Positions 18,720 through 55,298 of a stretch of 64,000 bases of DNA are shown in pieces. Within the stretch, counting starts at the first letter, position 1. Every line of letters starts with the position of its first letter. Under the pieces are notes generated by a model that worked only from the letters and a program-made list of their open reading frames with translations, was not told the origin of the DNA and ran no database searches. Position numbers and translations under genes: made by a program. The stretch is from NCBI RefSeq assembly GCF_020165195.1, contig NZ_JAIUHR010000002.1, positions 310,001 to 374,000 on the forward strand. The letters run 5' to 3'. The DNA is from Mesorhizobium sp. CA14 (lineage in GTDB: Bacteria; Pseudomonadota; Alphaproteobacteria; Rhizobiales; Rhizobiaceae).

Positions 18720-19151
18720 TCAGTCGCCGCGCTTCGGGCGAAGCCTCACGACGATGTCGACATTGGCGATCTCCATGCCTTCCGGAGGAGCCGGCAGGTT
18801 GGAGACGGTCACCGGTCCGCTTTCAATATCGAAAATGCGATTCTCGCCTTCGATGTAGAAGTGGTGGTGATCGGACGTGTTGGTGTCGAAATAGGTTTTC
18901 GACCCTTCGACCGCGAGGATGCGCAGCAGGCCAGCCTGGGTGAACTGGTGGAGCGCGTTGTAGACTGTCGCCAGCGAGACCGGCACGCCGGCGGCGATCG
19001 CCTCTTCGTGCAGTTCCTCGGCCGAAAGATGGCGGTCGCCCTTGGCGAAAAGCAGATCGGCCAGCGCAATGCGCTGACGCGTCGGCCTCAGGCCGGCTTC
19101 GCGAACCCGCTTGTCCACAGCGACATTTTCCTTCCGGTAGCCCGAATCCAT
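18720..19151 (-). CDS. irr: Iron response regulator Irr (Fur family)
   Basis: Irr is the haem-sensing Fur-family regulator that controls iron and haem genes in Rhizobiales when iron is scarce. The 143-residue product has the Fur winged helix 'VREAGLRPTRQRIALADLLF', 'HLSAEELHEEA', 'VSLATVYNALHQFTQAGLLR', then the diagnostic haem motif 'TSDHHHFYIEGENRIFDI'. The ATG at 19151 was chosen because a good promoter lies at 19239-19267, so upstream in-frame Met codons would be outside the transcript. It sits next to fabA, as in other rhizobia, and a possible Irr target palindrome is at 53874-53896. Confidence 0.93.
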   Translation of the reverse strand: MDSGYRKENVAVDKRVREAGLRPTRQRIALADLLFAKGDRHLSAEELHEEAIAAGVPVSLATVYNALHQFTQAGLLRILAVEGSKTYFDTNTSDHHHFYIEGENRIFDIESGPVTVSNLPAPPEGMEIANVDIVVRLRPKRGD

Positions 19152-19238
19152 CTCTTTGCGTCGAAGCTTGCTGCCCAGCCCATCAACAGGTCCAGAATGG
19201 CAAAAAGACGTCAAAAGCCAAAACCGGACATCAGCCGA

Positions 19239-19267
19239 CATATATTCTGTAGTCCAAATGCGATCAA
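19239..19267 (-). promoter_or_regulatory. Promoter of irr
   Basis: On the minus strand TTGATC and TATATG are separated by exactly 17 bases. Transcription would start near 19232, about 80 bases before the irr ATG. An overlapping TTGACC on the plus strand (19277-19282) could belong to fabA. Confidence 0.65.
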
Positions 19268-19399
19268 TAGCGCGCATTGACCCGGGCAGGCGCACGGGTT
19301 AAGCGCAAACGCCGGTTTCCGGCCGCAAACAGAGTGTGTTAGGAAACCAACGAGAAGGGCGCCCTGCCGCCCGCGAAAGAACACGGGGACAGAAATTTG

Positions 19400-46244: not shown

Positions 46245-46292
46245 GCGCATGATCCTTTCCGAAAATCGGAGCCGATTTTCGGGGTCATGCGC
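46245..46292. repeat. Palindromic repeat, CATGATC family, copy 1
   Basis: Ends GCGCATGATC and TCATGCGC enclose a CCGAAAATCGG...CCGATTTTCGG stem. Relatives are at 46818-46860 (inside tsaB) and 52298-52334. Confidence 0.75.
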
Positions 46293-47679: not shown

Positions 47680-48801
47680 TCACGCCGTCGCGACAATGCG
47701 CAGCATGTGGTTGTCCCAGACATAGTCCGGTTCGGAGCGGATGGCGCCGGCGCCGCCGACGATCTCGCCGGCGCCGGTCGTCGCCATGAAGCCGGCACCG
47801 TCGGGCGCGAGGCCGCAGACCTCGACCAGCGATTTGGTCGCGACCACGCACCCGCTGGCGGCGTCGAGGACGGCCAGCGAATTGCCCTCCGGCGAGGTGA
47901 CGGCGACGGTGCCGGTGGCGGCGTTGGCGGCGACCGAGCCGATATAATTGCGGAAGCCTGAGAGCACGTCCTGCGGCATCTCCAGGAGCTCGAGCTCCTT
48001 GCCGCGCGCGGCACGGCCGACCAGGGCCGGGCGGTCGGTCGCCGGCCCGCGATATTGGCAGCCGAACCAGACGGTGCCCGCCTGGTCGCGATCCATGTGG
48101 CGGATCGACAGCTGATGCAGCGCCGGCGGTAATTCGTGCTTTTCGATCAGGTCGCCGGTGACGCGGTCGACCAGCGTATAGGACGGCTTCATCGTCGCGA
48201 TGTTGAGTTCGGCGCGGCCGAAATCGGGATGGGTTTCGATGCCACCATTAGCGATGGCTAATGTGCGGCCGTCGCCGAGCAGGAGCAACTCATGCGGGCC
48301 CATGCCGTAGGTCGGGAACTCGCCGACGCGATTGAATTTCTCCCGCGCGTCATAGACACCCACGACACCTGCCGCGCTGTCGAAATCGTTCTCCGTCGCA
48401 TAGAGCAAGGCGCCGTCGGGCGAGAACACGCCATGGCCGAAGAAATGCCGGCCGGCGATGCTGGCGATGGTCAGCGGCTTGTCGCGGCCGGCATGGTCGA
48501 AGACCACGGCAAAGGTGCCGGGCTGGCGGGCAAAGACCACCGAGCGCTTCGACACCGGATCGAAAGTGACGTCGTGGCCACGGTCGGGCAGATCGACCGT
48601 GTGCAGGATTTTCCCCGCCTCGGAGAGCACGGCGGCGCCGAAGCTGCCGTCGCGCTTGACGAACGCCGTGGCAAACACCGCATCCGCGGCAAGCGTGTCG
48701 GCCCAGGCGCGCGGCGCCATCACGGCTGCGAAGCCCGCGCCCGCGGCTCGCAGGAAATCGCGGCGGTCGATGAGGGCGGTTCTCACGGCATCAATCCCCA
48801 T
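47680..48801 (-). CDS. DUF1513 Tat-exported protein, iron cluster
   Basis: The 373-residue protein begins with a twin-arginine signal ('DRRDFLRAAGAGFAAVMAP') and continues with a likely beta-propeller with 'DLPDRGHDVTFDP' and 'GHGVFSPDGALLYATEND' repeats, as in DUF1513. It should be periplasmic. Its start overlaps the imelysin stop by 11 bases, so it is the last gene of the iron operon. DUF1513 proteins commonly accompany imelysin and di-haem proteins, but their function is not established. Confidence 0.85.
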   Translation of the reverse strand: MGIDAVRTALIDRRDFLRAAGAGFAAVMAPRAWADTLAADAVFATAFVKRDGSFGAAVLSEAGKILHTVDLPDRGHDVTFDPVSKRSVVFARQPGTFAVVFDHAGRDKPLTIASIAGRHFFGHGVFSPDGALLYATENDFDSAAGVVGVYDAREKFNRVGEFPTYGMGPHELLLLGDGRTLAIANGGIETHPDFGRAELNIATMKPSYTLVDRVTGDLIEKHELPPALHQLSIRHMDRDQAGTVWFGCQYRGPATDRPALVGRAARGKELELLEMPQDVLSGFRNYIGSVAANAATGTVAVTSPEGNSLAVLDAASGCVVATKSLVEVCGLAPDGAGFMATTGAGEIVGGAGAIRSEPDYVWDNHMLRIVATA

Positions 48802-49867
48802 CCAGCGACGAAAAGCCCGCGGTCAGGCCGAACTCCGCGGTCATCCTGGTGCCGATCAAGGTCGACAGGCTGGAAGTGATCAGCGCGAAATGCTCGAGCT
48901 TGCCGCGCAGCGCGGGGTCGGCGAGGGCCTTGTCGATCGGACCGGCAACGGATTTCGCTGTCGTCACGCCGTTGGCGAGCTGGATGTGGATGGACTCTGC
49001 CATCCATTGCGCATCGGCCGGCAGAGCGTCGCCGAGCCTGGAGGCTTGGAACAGCTGGTCGATGCCGGACAGATTTCCGGCCAGCGAGGCCGTCGTGTTC
49101 TGCGAGCGCCAGTAGATCGCCTGCTTCGGCTTGTCGGCATCGGGTTTCGCGCCGAGAAATCCCTTGAGCCGCACGTCGCGGATCATTTCCAGCTCGTTGA
49201 TGAAGACGCCGACCAGTTCCGTCACCGCTTCGTTGCCGTCGCGGTAGAGCGGGCTCTTCGGCCCCGGATTGGCCCAGAGCGACGCAAAGCCGTCGGGCTT
49301 TTGCCAGGCGTCGCGCACCTCGCCCGCCATCGTTTCGATGTTGCCGGCAACCGCCGCGCCATAGGCGCAGCGGTAAGGATCGTCTTTCCCGGCAAGGGTT
49401 TCGGCGCCGTCGCCGTAGAGCACATATTCGAGCGCGCCTAGGCCCTGCATGGCGACGCTCTTTTGCGCCAGTTGCGCCGGATCGGTGGCGGAAGCATCCT
49501 TCGATGCGAGCGTGGCCTGCACTTGCCTCAGGCCGATGCTCTTGCGGTCCGGCCAATAGAGCATGCGCTCCAGCCGGTTGTTCTCCTTGATCGGTCCGAA
49601 GGCGATGATCTCGGCCACCGACCAGGCCTCAACGGTGCCTGAAAACGCCGAGCGCGCCGCTTCGAGGTTTTGGCCGGACGGCGTTTCGCAAAGCCGGTGC
49701 ATCGCCTTGGTGAGGCCCGCCGCATGTTCGCCGAGGCTGGCGTAGGCGGGGCGGACGAAACCGTCGATGGCGCGACCGATGACATCGGAAGCCTTGACCG
49801 TGGCCGATGCCGGCAGCGCAGCTGCCAGAAGGAACGGAAGAGCAAGGGCCATGCGTTTCGACATCAT
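48791..49867 (-). CDS. Imelysin-family periplasmic protein (second copy)
   Basis: The 358-residue protein has a signal peptide (about 1-22, 'MALALPFLLAAALPASA') and the imelysin/peptidase M75 fold, with 'GALEYVLYGDG' and 'IYWRSQNTTASLAGNLSGIDQLF'. Imelysins are iron-regulated periplasmic or surface proteins of the IrpA type whose exact role is debated. It starts at ATG (49867) with GGAG upstream and overlaps the di-haem gene stop as ATGA. Confidence 0.87.
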   Translation of the reverse strand: MMSKRMALALPFLLAAALPASATVKASDVIGRAIDGFVRPAYASLGEHAAGLTKAMHRLCETPSGQNLEAARSAFSGTVEAWSVAEIIAFGPIKENNRLERMLYWPDRKSIGLRQVQATLASKDASATDPAQLAQKSVAMQGLGALEYVLYGDGAETLAGKDDPYRCAYGAAVAGNIETMAGEVRDAWQKPDGFASLWANPGPKSPLYRDGNEAVTELVGVFINELEMIRDVRLKGFLGAKPDADKPKQAIYWRSQNTTASLAGNLSGIDQLFQASRLGDALPADAQWMAESIHIQLANGVTTAKSVAGPIDKALADPALRGKLEHFALITSSLSTLIGTRMTAEFGLTAGFSSLDGD

Positions 49868-51465
49868 AGGGACTCCAGGAATTTTATCAGCGCGTCGCGA
49901 TCGGCCGCGCCGGCGCCGGCGAAACGGTCGCGCGCCTTCTGGCCCTCGCCGCCATGCCACAGGATCGCCTCGGCAAGCGTGCGGGCGCGAGCGTCATGCA
50001 GATAGAAAGCATTGCCGTTGACGGTCGCGGTGAGCCCGATGCCCCAGAGCGGCGGGGTGCGCCATTCGCTGCCGCTCGCTTCGCCAACGCGCTGCCCATC
50101 GGCAAGACCTTCGCCCATGTCGTGCAATAGGAAGTCGGAATAGGGCCAGATCAGCTGGAAGGCCTGCGCCTTGTTGGGCGTGCCGCGCATGGTGACGAAT
50201 TTCGGCGTGTGGCAGGCAATGCAGCCCATCTCGTAGAGCTGTTTTTTGCCGGCCAGCACGTCAGGTTTGCCAATATTGCGCCGCGCTGGCACGGCCAGGT
50301 TCTGCGAATAGAAGGTGACGAGGTCCATCACCGGCGGCGGCGCTTCGGCCGCGCCAAGGCGTTGCTGCACCCCGTTCGGCATGGCAAGGCAATCCTTCTG
50401 CGCCTCGGTGCAATCGCCCCAATGCTTCGGCATTTCCGACGTCGAGATGCCTATATCGCCGGCAAAGGCATCGGCCGCTTGCTGGCGGATCGAGGCGGTC
50501 TGTGCCTTCCAGCCGAAGCGGCCCAAGGTCACCGCGCCACTCAACGCATCGCGCACGATGTTCGGCCGGCCCGAAATGCCGTCGCCGTCGCGGTCGTCCG
50601 GATCGGCATGGGCGAGGATATCGGCCGGCGCGATCTGCTCGATCAGGCCCAGCCCGATCATCGGCGGCGTCAGGCGCGGCGACAACGTGGTGCGCGGATC
50701 GAGCGGGCCGTAGCCGAGATTCTCGATCGTATAGCGCGGCTTGCGCAGTGAAACGACGGTGCCGTCGCCGAGCGTAACTTTTTGCTCCTGGTAATCGACG
50801 CGCATCCGGCCTTCGCCTTTGAGGCCTGGAACCGCAAGGTCCTGCAATTGCGCGCCATAGACCGGGTCCGGAAAATTCAGCAGCTTGTGGTCGGCAAGCG
50901 CTGCCTTTTCCTCGGCGCTGCCGGCGTCGCGCGCCAACCGCAGGAACATCGATGTCGATCCGGCATCGCCCTCCGGAGGACGCCCGCGGCCATCCTTCAG
51001 ATGGCAGTTCTGGCAGGCGCGTTCGTTGAACAGCGGGCCGAGCCCGTCCGAAGCCTGGGTAGAGGACGGCGACGACACCCAGTTCTTGCGAAACAGCGCG
51101 TTGCCGAGCTTGAAGGTTCCTTCTTCCTCGAAGGTGATATTGGCAGAGGATTGCGAGAAGGCATCGCGGTTGGCGTCCTTGCGCGAGGTGCCGGCGCCAC
51201 CCTGCATCAGCTCGAACGGCTCCGGCCTGGTGAAATCGGCCGTCGGCCTGGTGACGGCCAGAACCCGCGCCTGATCCTTCGGCGTCAGATCGGCGCGGCT
51301 TGTCGGCAGGGCGGCGGGCTCACCGGCTAAGGCCGATGCGGAAAGCATGATCGCCAGCAAAAGCCATGCTCCGCGACCAATCCGGTATCGCGGGGTCGTC
51401 TGGGACGGCAAGCGGTGAATCCCGGCCCGCCACGCGCGGCGCGAAAAATCTACGGGGCGCCGCAT
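49864..51465 (-). CDS. Di-haem oxidoreductase-like protein (DUF1111)
   Basis: The 533-residue protein has a signal sequence (about 28-48) and two c-type haem sites: 'CQNCH' near residue 155 and 'CIACH' near residue 420. The rest, including 'FLLHDMGEGLADGQ' and 'EWRTPPLWGIGL', matches the DUF1111 di-haem family often found with imelysins. It probably carries electrons in the periplasm, perhaps for iron reduction or oxidation. The bfr stop and its TAAGGA serve as ribosome site, 12 bases before the ATG. Confidence 0.88.
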   Translation of the reverse strand: MRRPVDFSRRAWRAGIHRLPSQTTPRYRIGRGAWLLLAIMLSASALAGEPAALPTSRADLTPKDQARVLAVTRPTADFTRPEPFELMQGGAGTSRKDANRDAFSQSSANITFEEEGTFKLGNALFRKNWVSSPSSTQASDGLGPLFNERACQNCHLKDGRGRPPEGDAGSTSMFLRLARDAGSAEEKAALADHKLLNFPDPVYGAQLQDLAVPGLKGEGRMRVDYQEQKVTLGDGTVVSLRKPRYTIENLGYGPLDPRTTLSPRLTPPMIGLGLIEQIAPADILAHADPDDRDGDGISGRPNIVRDALSGAVTLGRFGWKAQTASIRQQAADAFAGDIGISTSEMPKHWGDCTEAQKDCLAMPNGVQQRLGAAEAPPPVMDLVTFYSQNLAVPARRNIGKPDVLAGKKQLYEMGCIACHTPKFVTMRGTPNKAQAFQLIWPYSDFLLHDMGEGLADGQRVGEASGSEWRTPPLWGIGLTATVNGNAFYLHDARARTLAEAILWHGGEGQKARDRFAGAGAADRDALIKFLESL

Positions 51466-51477
51466 TCCCGCATGTCC

Positions 51478-51963
51478 TTACTCCGCCTCGTTGGCCGAGT
51501 CGGCATTGAGCTGGCCGTATTTTTCCTCGCCGATCGAGGCAAGCAGGTCGAGCTGCGTTTCCAGGAAATCGATATGTCCTTCTTCGTCGGTCAAAAGATC
51601 CTCGAACAGCTTCATCGAAACGAAATCGCCTTCGTCCTGGCAGATCTCGCGCGAGCGCTTGTAGGCGGTGCGCGCGTCATATTCGCCGGCGAGATCGGAT
51701 TCGAGCACTTCCTTGACGTTCTGGCCGATGCGCAACGGCGCGACGGACTGCAGGTTCGGGTGGCCTTCGAGGAAGATGATGCGCGCGATCAGCCGGTCGG
51801 CGTGATGCATTTCCTCGATCGATTCCGCCCGCTCCTTCTTTGCCAGCTTGGTGTAGCCCCAATCCTCGAGCAGACGATAATGCACCCAGTACTGGTTGAC
51901 GGCCCCAAGCTCCAGAAACAGGGCTTCATTAAGCCGCTCGATGACCTGCGGTTCGCCTTTCAT
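51478..51963 (-). CDS. bfr: Bacterioferritin
   Basis: Bacterioferritin stores iron in a 24-mer with haem at subunit interfaces. The 161-residue protein has '[30 protein letters not shown]', '[23 protein letters not shown]' and '[13 protein letters not shown]', which include the ferroxidase Glu and His ligands. The candidate haem Met is in 'EEMHHADR'-adjacent sequence. The ATG at 51963 lies inside the bfd gene, which it overlaps by 35 bases. Confidence 0.95.
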
Positions 51964-52240
51964 GGGTTCTGCTCCCGTATTGGCCGCGCAAGCCTCGCAC
52001 GCGATCCAGGTGTGAAACGATGTCCACGCCCCCCACCTCTGAGCGGGTGTGGTAATTCTCGGTGACCCGAATGATCGTTTCCACCACATTTGGGAAACAG
52101 CCGCAACAGCGACCGCGCTTGGCCATCGCGTGGTAGACCTTCGCGGGCACGATCAGCTGCCAGGGATCCTGATCCAGCAGGCCGACGATCGTCTGCTCGA
52201 TCTCCTTTTCGGTAATGATGTTGCAATGGCAGATCAGCAT
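51929..52240 (-). CDS. bfd: Bacterioferritin-associated ferredoxin
   Basis: Bfd reduces stored iron in bacterioferritin so it can be released. The 103-residue protein has the [2Fe-2S] Cys set 'LICHCNII' and 'GRCCGCFP', as in E. coli Bfd, and a longer, arginine-rich C-terminal tail. It precedes bfr with a 35-base overlap, so release and storage proteins are made together. Confidence 0.92.
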
Positions 52241-52340: not shown

Positions 52341-53633
52341 TTACTTGAATACCTTGTCGGGCGCGTCGAGGCTGTCGGAACCCTCGAAAGCGATCTGGTT
52401 CAGCTTGAGCGAGCCGACGGCGCGCTCGATCGACTTGGTCTGATCGATCAGGGCGTCGATCGCCGCCTGCACGGTGGCGTTGCCTTCGGTGTTGCCCTCG
52501 GCGATCTGCTGGTCATAGGCCTCGCCGGCAAGAGCACGCGCCTGGATGGCCTCCATCTTGGCGACGGTGGTGTCGAGCTTGCCCGACAGCTCTTTGTCGA
52601 TCGCCGGATCGGTCGCCTTCACCATGTCGGACACTGACGGGCCCGAAACCACGGAGCCGTCGAGCCGCTTGTATCTGGCATGGTAGGCGTCGCGGATGCC
52701 GACCGCGTCATAGAGATGCGAGATGTAGGTGTTGTCGGAGAAGCAGTCGTGCTCCTCTTCCGGATCGTGCAGCAACAGGCCGAGCTTCATGCGCTCGCCG
52801 GCCAGTTCGCCATAGGAGAGCGAGCCCATGCCGGTGAAGATGATGGAGATGCCGGCATTCGCATCGCCGTCGGTGAGGTTCTTGCGCGCCGCGCCATCCT
52901 CCTTCCAGTTGCCGACCATTTCCTGCAGGTCAGACACCAGAAGGTCGCTTGCCGATTTCAGATATTCGGCGCGGCGGTCGCAATTGCCGCCCGTGCAGTT
53001 CTTGAGGTCGTAATCCGTATAAGGCCGCTCGCCCGCGCCAGGGCCGGTGCCATGCAGGTCCTGGCCCCACAGCAGGAATTCGATGGCGTGATAGCCGGTC
53101 GCGACATTGGCTTCGACGTCGCCGGCCTCCTGCAGCGTGCCGGACAGGAACTCGGGCGTCAGCTTCGAGGCATCGACCTTCTTGCCGTTGATCTCGATTT
53201 CCTTGTTGGCGATGACGTTGGCCGTATAGAGCGCGTTCTCATCCGACTCGGTGCCGTAACTCTTGGCGACATAGTCGATCAGGCCCTCATCCAGCGGCCA
53301 GGAATTCACCTTGCCTTCCCAGTCGTCGACGATCTTGTTGCCGAAGCGGTAGACTTCGGTCTGCTGGTAAGGAATGCGCGCGGCCTTCCAGGCTTCGCGC
53401 GCGGCGTTCAACGTGTCGGCCGAGGGGCTGGCGACGAGCGCATCCACCGCCTTGTCCAGCGCCTGCGCAGTGGTCAGCGAATCCTCGTATTTGGCCAAAG
53501 CGATGTCGGCATAGGTCTTGATCACCGCTTTGGCGTCCGTCTCGGCTTTCGCCGGCAACACGAACACCGCCGCCGTCAGTGCAGCCGTGGCGCAGATCGC
53601 AGCCAGCCTGCCGCCATTACGTGCCGTCATCAT
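52341..53633 (-). CDS. Imelysin-family periplasmic protein (first copy, IrpA-like)
   Basis: The 430-residue protein has a signal peptide (about 1-30, ending 'VLPAKAE') and an imelysin domain with 'GYHAIEFLLWGQDLHGTGPG', 'ERPYTDY' and 'DNTYISHLYDAVGIRDAY', which match IrpA-type imelysins. It begins with a GGAG-preceded ATG at 53633. Upstream lies the palindrome proposed to bind Irr. It is separated from bfd by 100 bases containing a palindromic repeat. Confidence 0.9.
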   Translation of the reverse strand: MMTARNGGRLAAICATAALTAAVFVLPAKAETDAKAVIKTYADIALAKYEDSLTTAQALDKAVDALVASPSADTLNAAREAWKAARIPYQQTEVYRFGNKIVDDWEGKVNSWPLDEGLIDYVAKSYGTESDENALYTANVIANKEIEINGKKVDASKLTPEFLSGTLQEAGDVEANVATGYHAIEFLLWGQDLHGTGPGAGERPYTDYDLKNCTGGNCDRRAEYLKSASDLLVSDLQEMVGNWKEDGAARKNLTDGDANAGISIIFTGMGSLSYGELAGERMKLGLLLHDPEEEHDCFSDNTYISHLYDAVGIRDAYHARYKRLDGSVVSGPSVSDMVKATDPAIDKELSGKLDTTVAKMEAIQARALAGEAYDQQIAEGNTEGNATVQAAIDALIDQTKSIERAVGSLKLNQIAFEGSDSLDAPDKVFK

Positions 53634-54044
53634 CCGTCTCCAGTTCTTTGGAAATTCAATAAAAGGCGTCCACCCCCGCAGAGGCATGAGCATGCCGGGA
53701 AAAATGGTGGCCGCGCCGATGCGCGGTTCGCGATAAAAAGACACCCAATTGCCTCCAATCGAAAGGGTTCAAGGCCCAGACATCAAAGGAATGCGCTTTG
53801 CGCGCAGCTCCCCATAAAGCGATGGAGACGCCGGGAGTCAACTGGTTCGGCACAAAATATTCAATTGAAACAATAGTTTAGAATTATTCTAAACTACAAA
53901 TATCAACTTTTAAGCCAGGACTGCCTCGCTGGCCCGATTGACAGACAGCCATTCTGGGTGCGACCCGATCCGCGGTTCTTGCGGCGGCTGCAGACAATCG
54001 CCACCTGGCGCAAGAGGCTAGATTTGCTGACCAAAAGGATTGCG
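53634..54044. other. Divergent control region of the iron genes
   Basis: The 411 bases between the imelysin gene (minus) and the flavoprotein gene (plus) are richer in A/T than the surrounding DNA near 53850-53915 and hold no credible gene. They contain the 23-bp palindrome. Reading both strands, TTGAAA-N17-TCTAAA (53865-53893, plus) and TTGATA-N17-TTCTAA (53906-53878, minus) place a -10-like hexamer of each direction inside the palindrome. Confidence 0.6.
53874..53896. promoter_or_regulatory. Perfect 23-bp palindrome, candidate Irr box (ICE)
   Basis: Two 11-base arms, TAGTTTAGAAT and its exact complement, flank one T. The TTTAGAA...TTCTAAA core resembles the iron control element bound by Irr in Bradyrhizobium and related bacteria, as I recall it. 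The site is 240 bases from the imelysin start and 149 bases from the flavoprotein start. The irr gene is in this window. Confidence 0.6.
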
Positions 54045-55298
54045 ATGACGAACGGGGTTGTGATTGTCGGTGCGGGCCATGCCGGCGTGCAGGCCGCCGC
54101 CAGCCTGCGCGAAGAGGGCTATGAAGGGCCTGTCGTGCTGCTCGGCGACGAGCAGGAACTGCCCTATCACAAGCCGCCGCTCTCCAAGACCTTCATCAAG
54201 GACGCCGAGGCCAAGCCGCAGCCCTTGCGCGGCGAAGCCTTCTACACTGGCAACAACATTGATTACCGGCCGGGCGTGCGCATCGACCGCATCGATGCCC
54301 GCGCGAGCCGGTTGAATGTCGCAGGCGGTGGAACGCTTGCCTTCGACCGGCTGGTGCTTGCGACCGGCTCGCGACCGCGCCTGCTCAAGCTCGACGGCGC
54401 CGGCCTTGCCGGCGTGGTCTCCCTGCGCTCGCTGGCCGATGCGCGCCTGATCCGCGAGTTCAGCGCGCAAAGCGAAGACGTGGTCATTCTCGGCGGCGGC
54501 TTCATCGGGCTGGAGATCGCGGCGACGCTAAGGGCCGCCGGCCGCAACGTCTCCGTCGTCGAGGCGGTCGACCGGCTGCTCGGCCGCGCCGTCGCGCCGA
54601 TCATCGCCGCGCATATGCGCCAGCGCCTGGAAACGATCGGCGTGCGCATCCTGACCGGCACCACCATTGCCCGCCTGGAGGGCGAAGGCGATCGCGTCTC
54701 GGCCGCGATCACGTCAGGCGGCGAACGCCTGCCAGCGCAGATGGTGATCATCGGCATCGGCGTGGTGCCCAATGTCGAACTGGCTGAAGCCGCCGGCCTG
54801 GCTACCGGCAACGGCATCCGCGTCGACCAGCATATGCAGAGCTCTATTCCCGAAATCCTCGCCATCGGCGACGCGGCCTCCTACCGGCACTGGTTCACCG
54901 GAGGCGACGTGCGGCTGGAATCGGTGCAGAACGCCACCGACCAGGCCAGGCTTGCCGCGCGCACCGTCCTCGGCCATGCCGAGCCCTTCTCGGCCGTACC
55001 GTGGTTCTGGTCGGATATCGGCGACATGAAGCTGCAGATGGTGGGCCTGACCCAAGGCGGCGATCACCATGTCGTGCTGGGCGATCTCGCCGAGAACAAG
55101 TTCTCGATCTACCACTATGCGGGCAACCGGCTGCTCGGCATCGAATCCGTCAACCGCCCGGCCGACCATATGCTTGGCCGCAAGATGCTCGGCGCCGGCT
55201 TCTCGCCGACGCCGCAAACCGTGGCAGGCGGGCCGGATGCACTGAAGGCAGCCCTTGCGGCCTTCAATCAGGACGAACCGGCGAGGGCGACGGGCTAG
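54045..55298 (+). CDS. FAD-dependent ferredoxin/rubredoxin-reductase-type oxidoreductase
   Basis: The 417-residue flavoprotein has the FAD site 'VVIVGAGHAGVQAAASLREEGYEG', a second dinucleotide site 'VVILGGGFIGLEIAATLRAAGRNVSVVE', and the late 'ILAIGDAASY'. This is the plan of putidaredoxin- and rhodocoxin-type NADH reductases. The ATG at 54045 has AAAGGA upstream. Facing the iron operon across the palindrome, it may feed electrons to Bfd, but partner assignment is inference. Confidence 0.85.
   Translation: MTNGVVIVGAGHAGVQAAASLREEGYEGPVVLLGDEQELPYHKPPLSKTFIKDAEAKPQPLRGEAFYTGNNIDYRPGVRIDRIDARASRLNVAGGGTLAFDRLVLATGSRPRLLKLDGAGLAGVVSLRSLADARLIREFSAQSEDVVILGGGFIGLEIAATLRAAGRNVSVVEAVDRLLGRAVAPIIAAHMRQRLETIGVRILTGTTIARLEGEGDRVSAAITSGGERLPAQMVIIGIGVVPNVELAEAAGLATGNGIRVDQHMQSSIPEILAIGDAASYRHWFTGGDVRLESVQNATDQARLAARTVLGHAEPFSAVPWFWSDIGDMKLQMVGLTQGGDHHVVLGDLAENKFSIYHYAGNRLLGIESVNRPADHMLGRKMLGAGFSPTPQTVAGGPDALKAALAAFNQDEPARATG

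Follow-up and report, generated by a model that had tools for sequence, protein, structure and literature searches.

A putative Irr site spaced from a conserved promoter, and a leader RNA hairpin, upstream of a presumed imelysin-bacterioferritin operon in Mesorhizobium

Irr boxes, small leader RNAs and the imelysin locus

Irr is best documented as a repressor of iron storage genes. According to a review, apo-Irr represses or activates depending on where its ICE lies, and in the Rhizobiales bfr is a target that Irr represses directly when iron is low (PMC7762939). ICE/Irr boxes that serve repression are reported at Bradyrhizobium bll6680 bfr and blr7895 and at R. sphaeroides mbfA, and the same account has R. 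sphaeroides irpA, bfd and bfr going up at low iron (PMC3413700). The RNA elements closest to the one discussed here are small hairpins too. In the serC motif, as PMC1273637 describes it, the 3' arm of the last hairpin contains the ribosome-binding site, and translation starts no more than 11 nt further on. A motif named 'Rhizobiales-1' is entered in PMC2864571 without an Rfam number and rated there as probably not cis-regulatory.

In the window, by which we mean the whole 64,000-nucleotide stretch of Mesorhizobium sp. CA14 DNA that was analysed, an exact ICE lies between divergent imelysin and flavoprotein genes; the first-pass annotation had placed it there, and both flanking genes bear these names out:

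47680-48801, minus strand: DUF1513 protein
48791-49870, minus strand: second imelysin
49864-51465, minus strand: di-haem oxidoreductase (DHOR)
51478-51966, minus strand: bacterioferritin (bfr)
51929-52240, minus strand: Bfd-like bacterioferritin-associated ferredoxin, named by eye
52341-53633, minus strand: IrpA-like imelysin of the Peptidase_M75 family, at the head of the operon, likely ATG at 53633
54045-55298, plus strand: divergent FAD-dependent flavoprotein of the ferredoxin-reductase type, likely ATG at 54045

The six minus-strand genes, transcribed in the order imelysin-bfd-bfr-DHOR-imelysin-DUF1513, presumably form a single operon. The nearest named relatives of the first imelysin are Mesorhizobium proteins, and a signal-peptide-like stretch can be seen by eye after its inner ATG. 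The Bfd-like protein matched no Pfam or NCBIfam model at E ≤ 0.001. The flavoprotein resembles dioxygenase ferredoxin reductases yet falls below cut-off in all of the best 25 of 81 matching NCBIfam models; a role as the Bfd/Bfr reductase is only a guess.

The ICE and the predicted promoters near it

53874-53896, no strand assigned: perfect 23-bp palindrome with an exact ICE (Irr box) core at 53877-53893, placed from the sequence and its relatives
53813-53841, minus strand: predicted imelysin operon promoter, conserved among relatives, with -35 TTGACT (53841-53836), N17 and -10 TTTATG (53818-53813)
53938-53943, plus strand: TTGACA kept among relatives, a candidate -35 for the flavoprotein gene that lies 44 nt past the ICE 17-mer
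18720-19295, minus strand: irr open frame, the IrrA model aligning to residues 57-189

The palindrome is just as the first-pass annotation had read it: TAGTTTAGAAT-T-ATTCTAAACTA, two perfect 11-base arms flanking a single T. Its core, TTTAGAA-TTA-TTCTAAA, was classed as an Irr box by comparison with TTTAGAA-N3-TTCTAAA, which we take to be the ICE consensus; a pattern scan of the window matched all 14 fixed positions, so that the likeness claimed earlier proves to be an exact match. Palindromes of this kind (arms of at least 11, spacer 0-1) arose by chance at a mean of 0.13 per sequence in 60 first-order Markov sequences derived from the window, and in none of 3000 derived from the intergenic region. 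The window holds one ICE match with up to three mismatches, and 22 of 100 shuffles hold at least one; it is therefore the exactness of the core that counts. Another palindrome with perfect 11-base arms, CCGAAAATCGG-AG-CCGATTTTCGG (spacer 2), lies at 46259-46282.

The regulator is close at hand. The first-pass annotation had stated that irr lies within the window, and the protein of the irr frame scores above cut-off with both the IrrA and the Irr models of NCBIfam; RirA is also encoded, elsewhere in the genome. The RirA site, the IRO box, follows the pattern TGA-N9-TCA. It was considered as the operator and rejected: no TGA-N9-TCA occurs in 53634-54044, and only two of 55 relatives (L011-L065) have one.

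Across the 6.07-Mb genome the exact ICE occurs twice, as the palindrome and at an MbfA-like gene, where the site begins 33 nt ahead of the ATG. Copies with a single mismatch also number two: the first begins 48 nt ahead of an NfuA-like gene, and the second lies upstream of a cysteine-desulfurase-like gene (all three genes named by eye). Allowing up to two mismatches yields six sites, but the reversed pattern then gives four, and hence none but the near-exact ICEs is informative. Two of them occupy a repressor position: at the MbfA-like gene the ICE shares bases with a predicted -10 (promoter with 8/12 consensus matches), and at the cysteine-desulfurase-like gene it begins 4 nt past one (9/12). 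Promoter prediction returned none near the ICE of the NfuA-like gene.

How far does the site at imelysin extend among relatives? In 80 relatives of the window's imelysin taken from named records, an ICE was sought up to 900 nt upstream: 45 have an exact copy, and the site carries one mismatch in ten relatives, two in one and at least three in 24. The split follows gene content, scored within the fetched stretch. Among relatives with bfd/bfr an ICE with at most two mismatches is present in 56 of 57; among those in which no bfd/bfr was detected (Rhizobium, Agrobacterium and others) it is present in 0 of 23, every ICE there having at least three mismatches. The full 11-base arms are kept at 23 of the 45 exact sites. 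Since seven of the 56 ICE-bearing relatives keep the site with no flavoprotein gene found within the locus, the ICE belongs first to the imelysin-bfd-bfr operon; the idea of a shared switch, put forward in the first-pass annotation, holds where the flavoprotein gene is present and fails in those seven loci. Loci of the Rhizobium/Agrobacterium type (L067-L090) have neither bfd-bfr nor ICE nor hairpin, with L074 and L087 as exceptions that have bfr; several of this group retain one ICE half-site, TTCTAAACTA or TTCCAAACTA, a few nt ahead of a TTGACA.

The ICE at 53877-53893 as such belongs to an already known type of site. Its exact motif, the irr gene in the window, the ICEs at other iron genes and its presence in 56 of 57 bfd/bfr-bearing relatives all support the Irr/ICE identity well, as far as sequence comparison goes, and the palindrome looks like a genuine, conserved site that Irr would bind.

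What Irr would do there depends on which promoter is used, and alignment of 48 intergenic regions points away from the palindrome: a second conserved block lies on the imelysin side, TTGACT-N17-TTTATG in the window, where its -35 begins 35 nt past the ICE 17-mer. In the window and its 56 ICE-bearing relatives the gap from ICE to TTGAC is 33-36 nt at 56 of 57 loci and 25 nt, one helical turn shorter, at the remaining one (Nitratireductor, L087); this is the constrained distance upstream of a -35 expected of an Irr activator site, and the near-fixed gap suggests activator geometry. The wider set, in which 14 of 191 loci are omitted from the ICE count because their upstream sequence is a duplicate or too short, has its peak at 34-36 nt (109 sites) and minor peaks at 24-25 (13) and 45-46 (2). 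Gaps outside the main mode show a weak 10.5-bp phasing (32 sites, p ~0.011 against uniform, uncorrected for shared ancestry). On the flavoprotein side TTGAC lies 44-46 or 55-58 nt from the ICE at 34 of 45 sites, and the mean phase nearly equals that of the imelysin side (3.4 vs 3.2); gaps of 51-53 nt at five loci are off phase, and in two loci the only TTGAC is at ~150 nt. No recognisable -10 accompanies the TTGACA at 53938-53943.

The first-pass annotation had proposed a simpler arrangement, in which a -35/-10 pair spaced by 17 bases on either strand puts both -10 boxes inside the palindrome and one dimer blocks both promoters. The plus-strand pair is exactly so, TTGAAA-N17-TCTAAA; the minus-strand pair, TTGATA-N18-TCTAAA, is spaced by 18, and a spacing of 17 would give TTCTAA, a poor -10. 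Each pair matches the consensus at 9/12 positions, and the downstream promoter at 8/12. If these were the promoters in use, Irr would be a repressor whose binding at low iron turns bfr and imelysin off. The review agrees with such a role in reporting direct repression of Rhizobiales bfr by Irr at low iron (PMC7762939), and for this reason activation of a bfr-containing operon is unexpected. It is conservation that leads us to prefer the downstream promoter despite its lower score. The overlapping -35 hexamers (at least 5/6 matching) are kept at 29 (plus strand) and 42 (minus strand) of 50 flavoprotein-bearing loci, the window included, yet at only 0 and 1 of the seven loci without a flavoprotein gene, where ICE and downstream promoter persist; the downstream -35 stands 33-36 nt from the ICE in all 50 of the former and in six of the latter. 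The layout also differs from that of the two other ICEs of this genome for which a promoter was predicted, which lie over or just after the -10 with the -35 upstream. Repression from the palindrome thus strikes us as unlikely, if still deserving of attention.

The most widely conserved promoter, then, starts 35 nt from the ICE, and some of the relatives have the overlapping hexamers. A single dimer covering both -10 boxes fits these data less well: what stands of that proposal is the overlapping hexamers kept in some flavoprotein-bearing loci, and what speaks against it is the position of the best-conserved imelysin promoter and the flavoprotein-side TTGACA, both outside the ICE. Since many flavoprotein-bearing loci keep the hexamers (42 and 29 of 50), an Irr-blocked overlapping promoter may also exist in such loci. 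Could both modes operate at once, an Irr-blocked promoter over the ICE for iron-replete cells and an Irr-activated one downstream for iron-starved cells? Flavoprotein-bearing loci contain and conserve both hexamer sets, but only the downstream promoter is conserved in the seven loci without that gene, and we give this dual switch little credence.

On balance we favour Irr acting at the ICE from upstream of the imelysin operon promoter, most likely as an activator at low iron, together with a conserved hairpin in the leader; Irr binding, activation rather than repression and the transcription start are all what we infer from sequence. The steps would be as follows: (i) at low iron, heme-free Irr would bind the ICE palindrome, whose centre is ~80 nt before the predicted start (near 53806); (ii) from this upstream position it would most likely activate the TTGACT-N17-TTTATG promoter of the imelysin-bfd-bfr-DHOR-imelysin-DUF1513 operon, and it would probably act on the divergent flavoprotein promoter too; and (iii) the transcript would start with a hairpin whose 3' strand contains the Shine-Dalgarno sequence for the first start codon, which would add another point of control after transcription. 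PMC3413700 reports that irpA, bfd and bfr of R. sphaeroides go up when iron is low, in agreement with this reading, but that they do so without need of Irr, which counts against activation by Irr.

A hairpin in the leader RNA

53752-53790, minus strand: 39-nt leader RNA hairpin, outer stem CCUUUGAU/AUUGGAGG, inner GGG-CCUUGAA-CCC, Shine-Dalgarno sequence in the 3' strand
53742-53744, minus strand: GTG start codon 7 nt past the hairpin GGAGG, opening a leader ORF in frame with imelysin (467 aa)

Soon after the predicted transcription start comes a block of 37-39 nt that is near-invariant across Mesorhizobium. Taken in isolation it folds into the outer stem CCUUUGAU/AUUGGAGG and an inner stem with the loop CCUUGAA; when more of the window's leader is included, the inner stem is kept and the predicted outer pairing is altered. 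Rfam 15 covariance models gave no match up to E 5 in 53600-54100 of the window, and none of the papers listed by a literature search describes such a hairpin RNA. A covariance model built from 20 sequences chosen for diversity, the window's included, finds matches at E ≤ 0.01 in 103 of 297 genomes of the family and 63 of 397 of the order, samples that partly overlap; 90 and 53 of these genomes, respectively, have a match below 1e-4. With a second model, a search of 385 genomes of the class recovered the window's genome at full strength and four others whose best E values, 5.6e-4 to 2.2e-3, are treated as chance. The hairpin occurs once in this genome, so a repeated element was discarded as an explanation.

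Does the structure covary? In 100 aligned copies (94 distinct), an alignment fitted to the model and hence leaning toward structure, both partners vary at nine of the 14 pairs, 78 cells in all; none of 500 shuffles reaches this value and slid versions give at most 24 cells. A smaller, structure-free alignment has changes at four pairs and in five cells, figures attained by 12 and seven of 500 shuffles. The loop is highly conserved and reads GGCCTT[GT]A[AC]CC in 91 of the 100 copies. It is very improbable that the 39-nt block is instead a DNA operator of another protein: the block is almost invariant in Mesorhizobium loci and adjoins a promoter, but a conserved loop between covarying stem arms is the reverse of a protein operator, and a start codon follows the GGAGG by 4-7 nt in 170 of 191 loci, compared with 33 and 21 in control windows.

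In several loci that encode a substrate-binding protein, the start after the hairpin is the gene's own. In the window, the GTG precedes the likely imelysin ATG by 111 nt, and the corresponding start is in frame into imelysin at only 24 of 55 named hairpin-bearing loci; for these reasons the hairpin may act on imelysin only indirectly. The same count, and peptides that differ between loci, led us to reject the idea that the block is conserved because it encodes additional N-terminal residues of imelysin.

Which genes follow the hairpin elsewhere? The RNA model was used to fetch 136 loci, 56 from searches and 80 picked by hand before their genes were seen; they include the window copy (L113), possible duplicates of named genomes and genomes common to both samples. 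Up to 2.6 kb of downstream DNA was compared with a reference set of imelysin, bfd/bfr, DHOR, an Fe(III)-transporter-type substrate-binding protein, FeoAB, a cupredoxin-FTR1 pair, A-type Fe-S proteins and a 170-aa protein. A member follows in 131 of the 136 loci and none in five, with the set derived in part from these same loci and 17 of the 131 matches owed to the 170-aa protein alone, which is tied to iron only by neighbourhood. Pfam supports FeoA, FeoB, FTR1, cupredoxin, Fe-S_biosyn and solute-binding families in one or two representatives each; the 'Fe(III) type' label of the substrate-binding protein is our own reading. An ICE with at most two mismatches lies upstream of the hairpin in 96 of the 136 loci, as against one with the reversed motif.

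The 170-aa protein (L098, L106, L147, L222) often stands after the hairpin and before imelysin or bfd-bfr, and has conserved Cys pairs and a motif of the 'LVxEGxRxW' type; two representatives gave no Pfam family above cut-off and, in one, a weak DUF7939 match. It is absent between hairpin and imelysin in the window. In L217, L219 and L224 a conserved 48-50-aa protein (M[AS]DFYGAFxxMVGLCFYEPxFF) comes right after the hairpin and before imelysin.

A covarying structure that contains a Shine-Dalgarno sequence and precedes functionally related genes is what a cis-regulatory leader RNA would look like, and the hairpin presumably regulates translation. Its small size speaks more for a protein or small RNA as partner, or for a stem that melts in a temperature-like way, than for a metabolite aptamer; we know of no established RyhB counterpart in the rhizobial order. 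The fuller proposal could equally well be right or wrong: a new cis-regulatory RNA of this order would hide or expose the Shine-Dalgarno sequence of iron genes according to iron status, by way of its loop and in series with an Irr-activated promoter, and its gene set would comprise imelysin, bfd-bfr, the Cys-rich 170-aa protein, the Fe(III)-type transporter, FeoAB, FTR1 and A-type Fe-S proteins.

Comparison with known systems

Literature searches on imelysin with Irr or with Rhizobium, and on activation by Irr, listed nothing on this locus. As far as they reach, an ICE spaced from its promoter and combined with a hairpin is a new architecture, and the hairpin, with its ribosome-binding site, is a seemingly undescribed RNA placed before many iron genes of the rhizobial order. 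The large comparative set with its near-fixed gap between ICE and promoter makes an activator mode of Irr directly testable, and the hairpin would add a further, post-transcriptional layer to iron control in the order.

Among described RNAs, 'Rhizobiales-1' was compared with the hairpin by its description in PMC2864571 rather than by sequence. The serC and ybhL motifs of alphaproteobacteria (RF00517 and RF00520; PMC1273637) resemble it, as described there, in being small hairpins near a predicted transcription start; the window's hairpin differs in matching no Rfam model, in preceding several kinds of iron genes and in having an ICE upstream.

With the repressing ICE/Irr boxes as reported in PMC3413700, the site shares its palindromic core, the Irr family and downstream genes for iron storage and handling. 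Unlike the Irr box of R. sphaeroides mbfA, which in that account covers the transcription start, the ICE of the window keeps a near-fixed distance upstream of the best-conserved -35; unlike the repressing sites described there, it is flanked by divergent genes and accompanied by a leader hairpin. With the Irr-activated promoters (Rudolph et al. 2006, as cited in PMC7762939) it can be compared in that the sign of control is said to follow the position of the ICE. From those that the review describes it differs in its target, imelysin-bfd-bfr, which Irr would here activate, and in a spacing that is kept over many loci.
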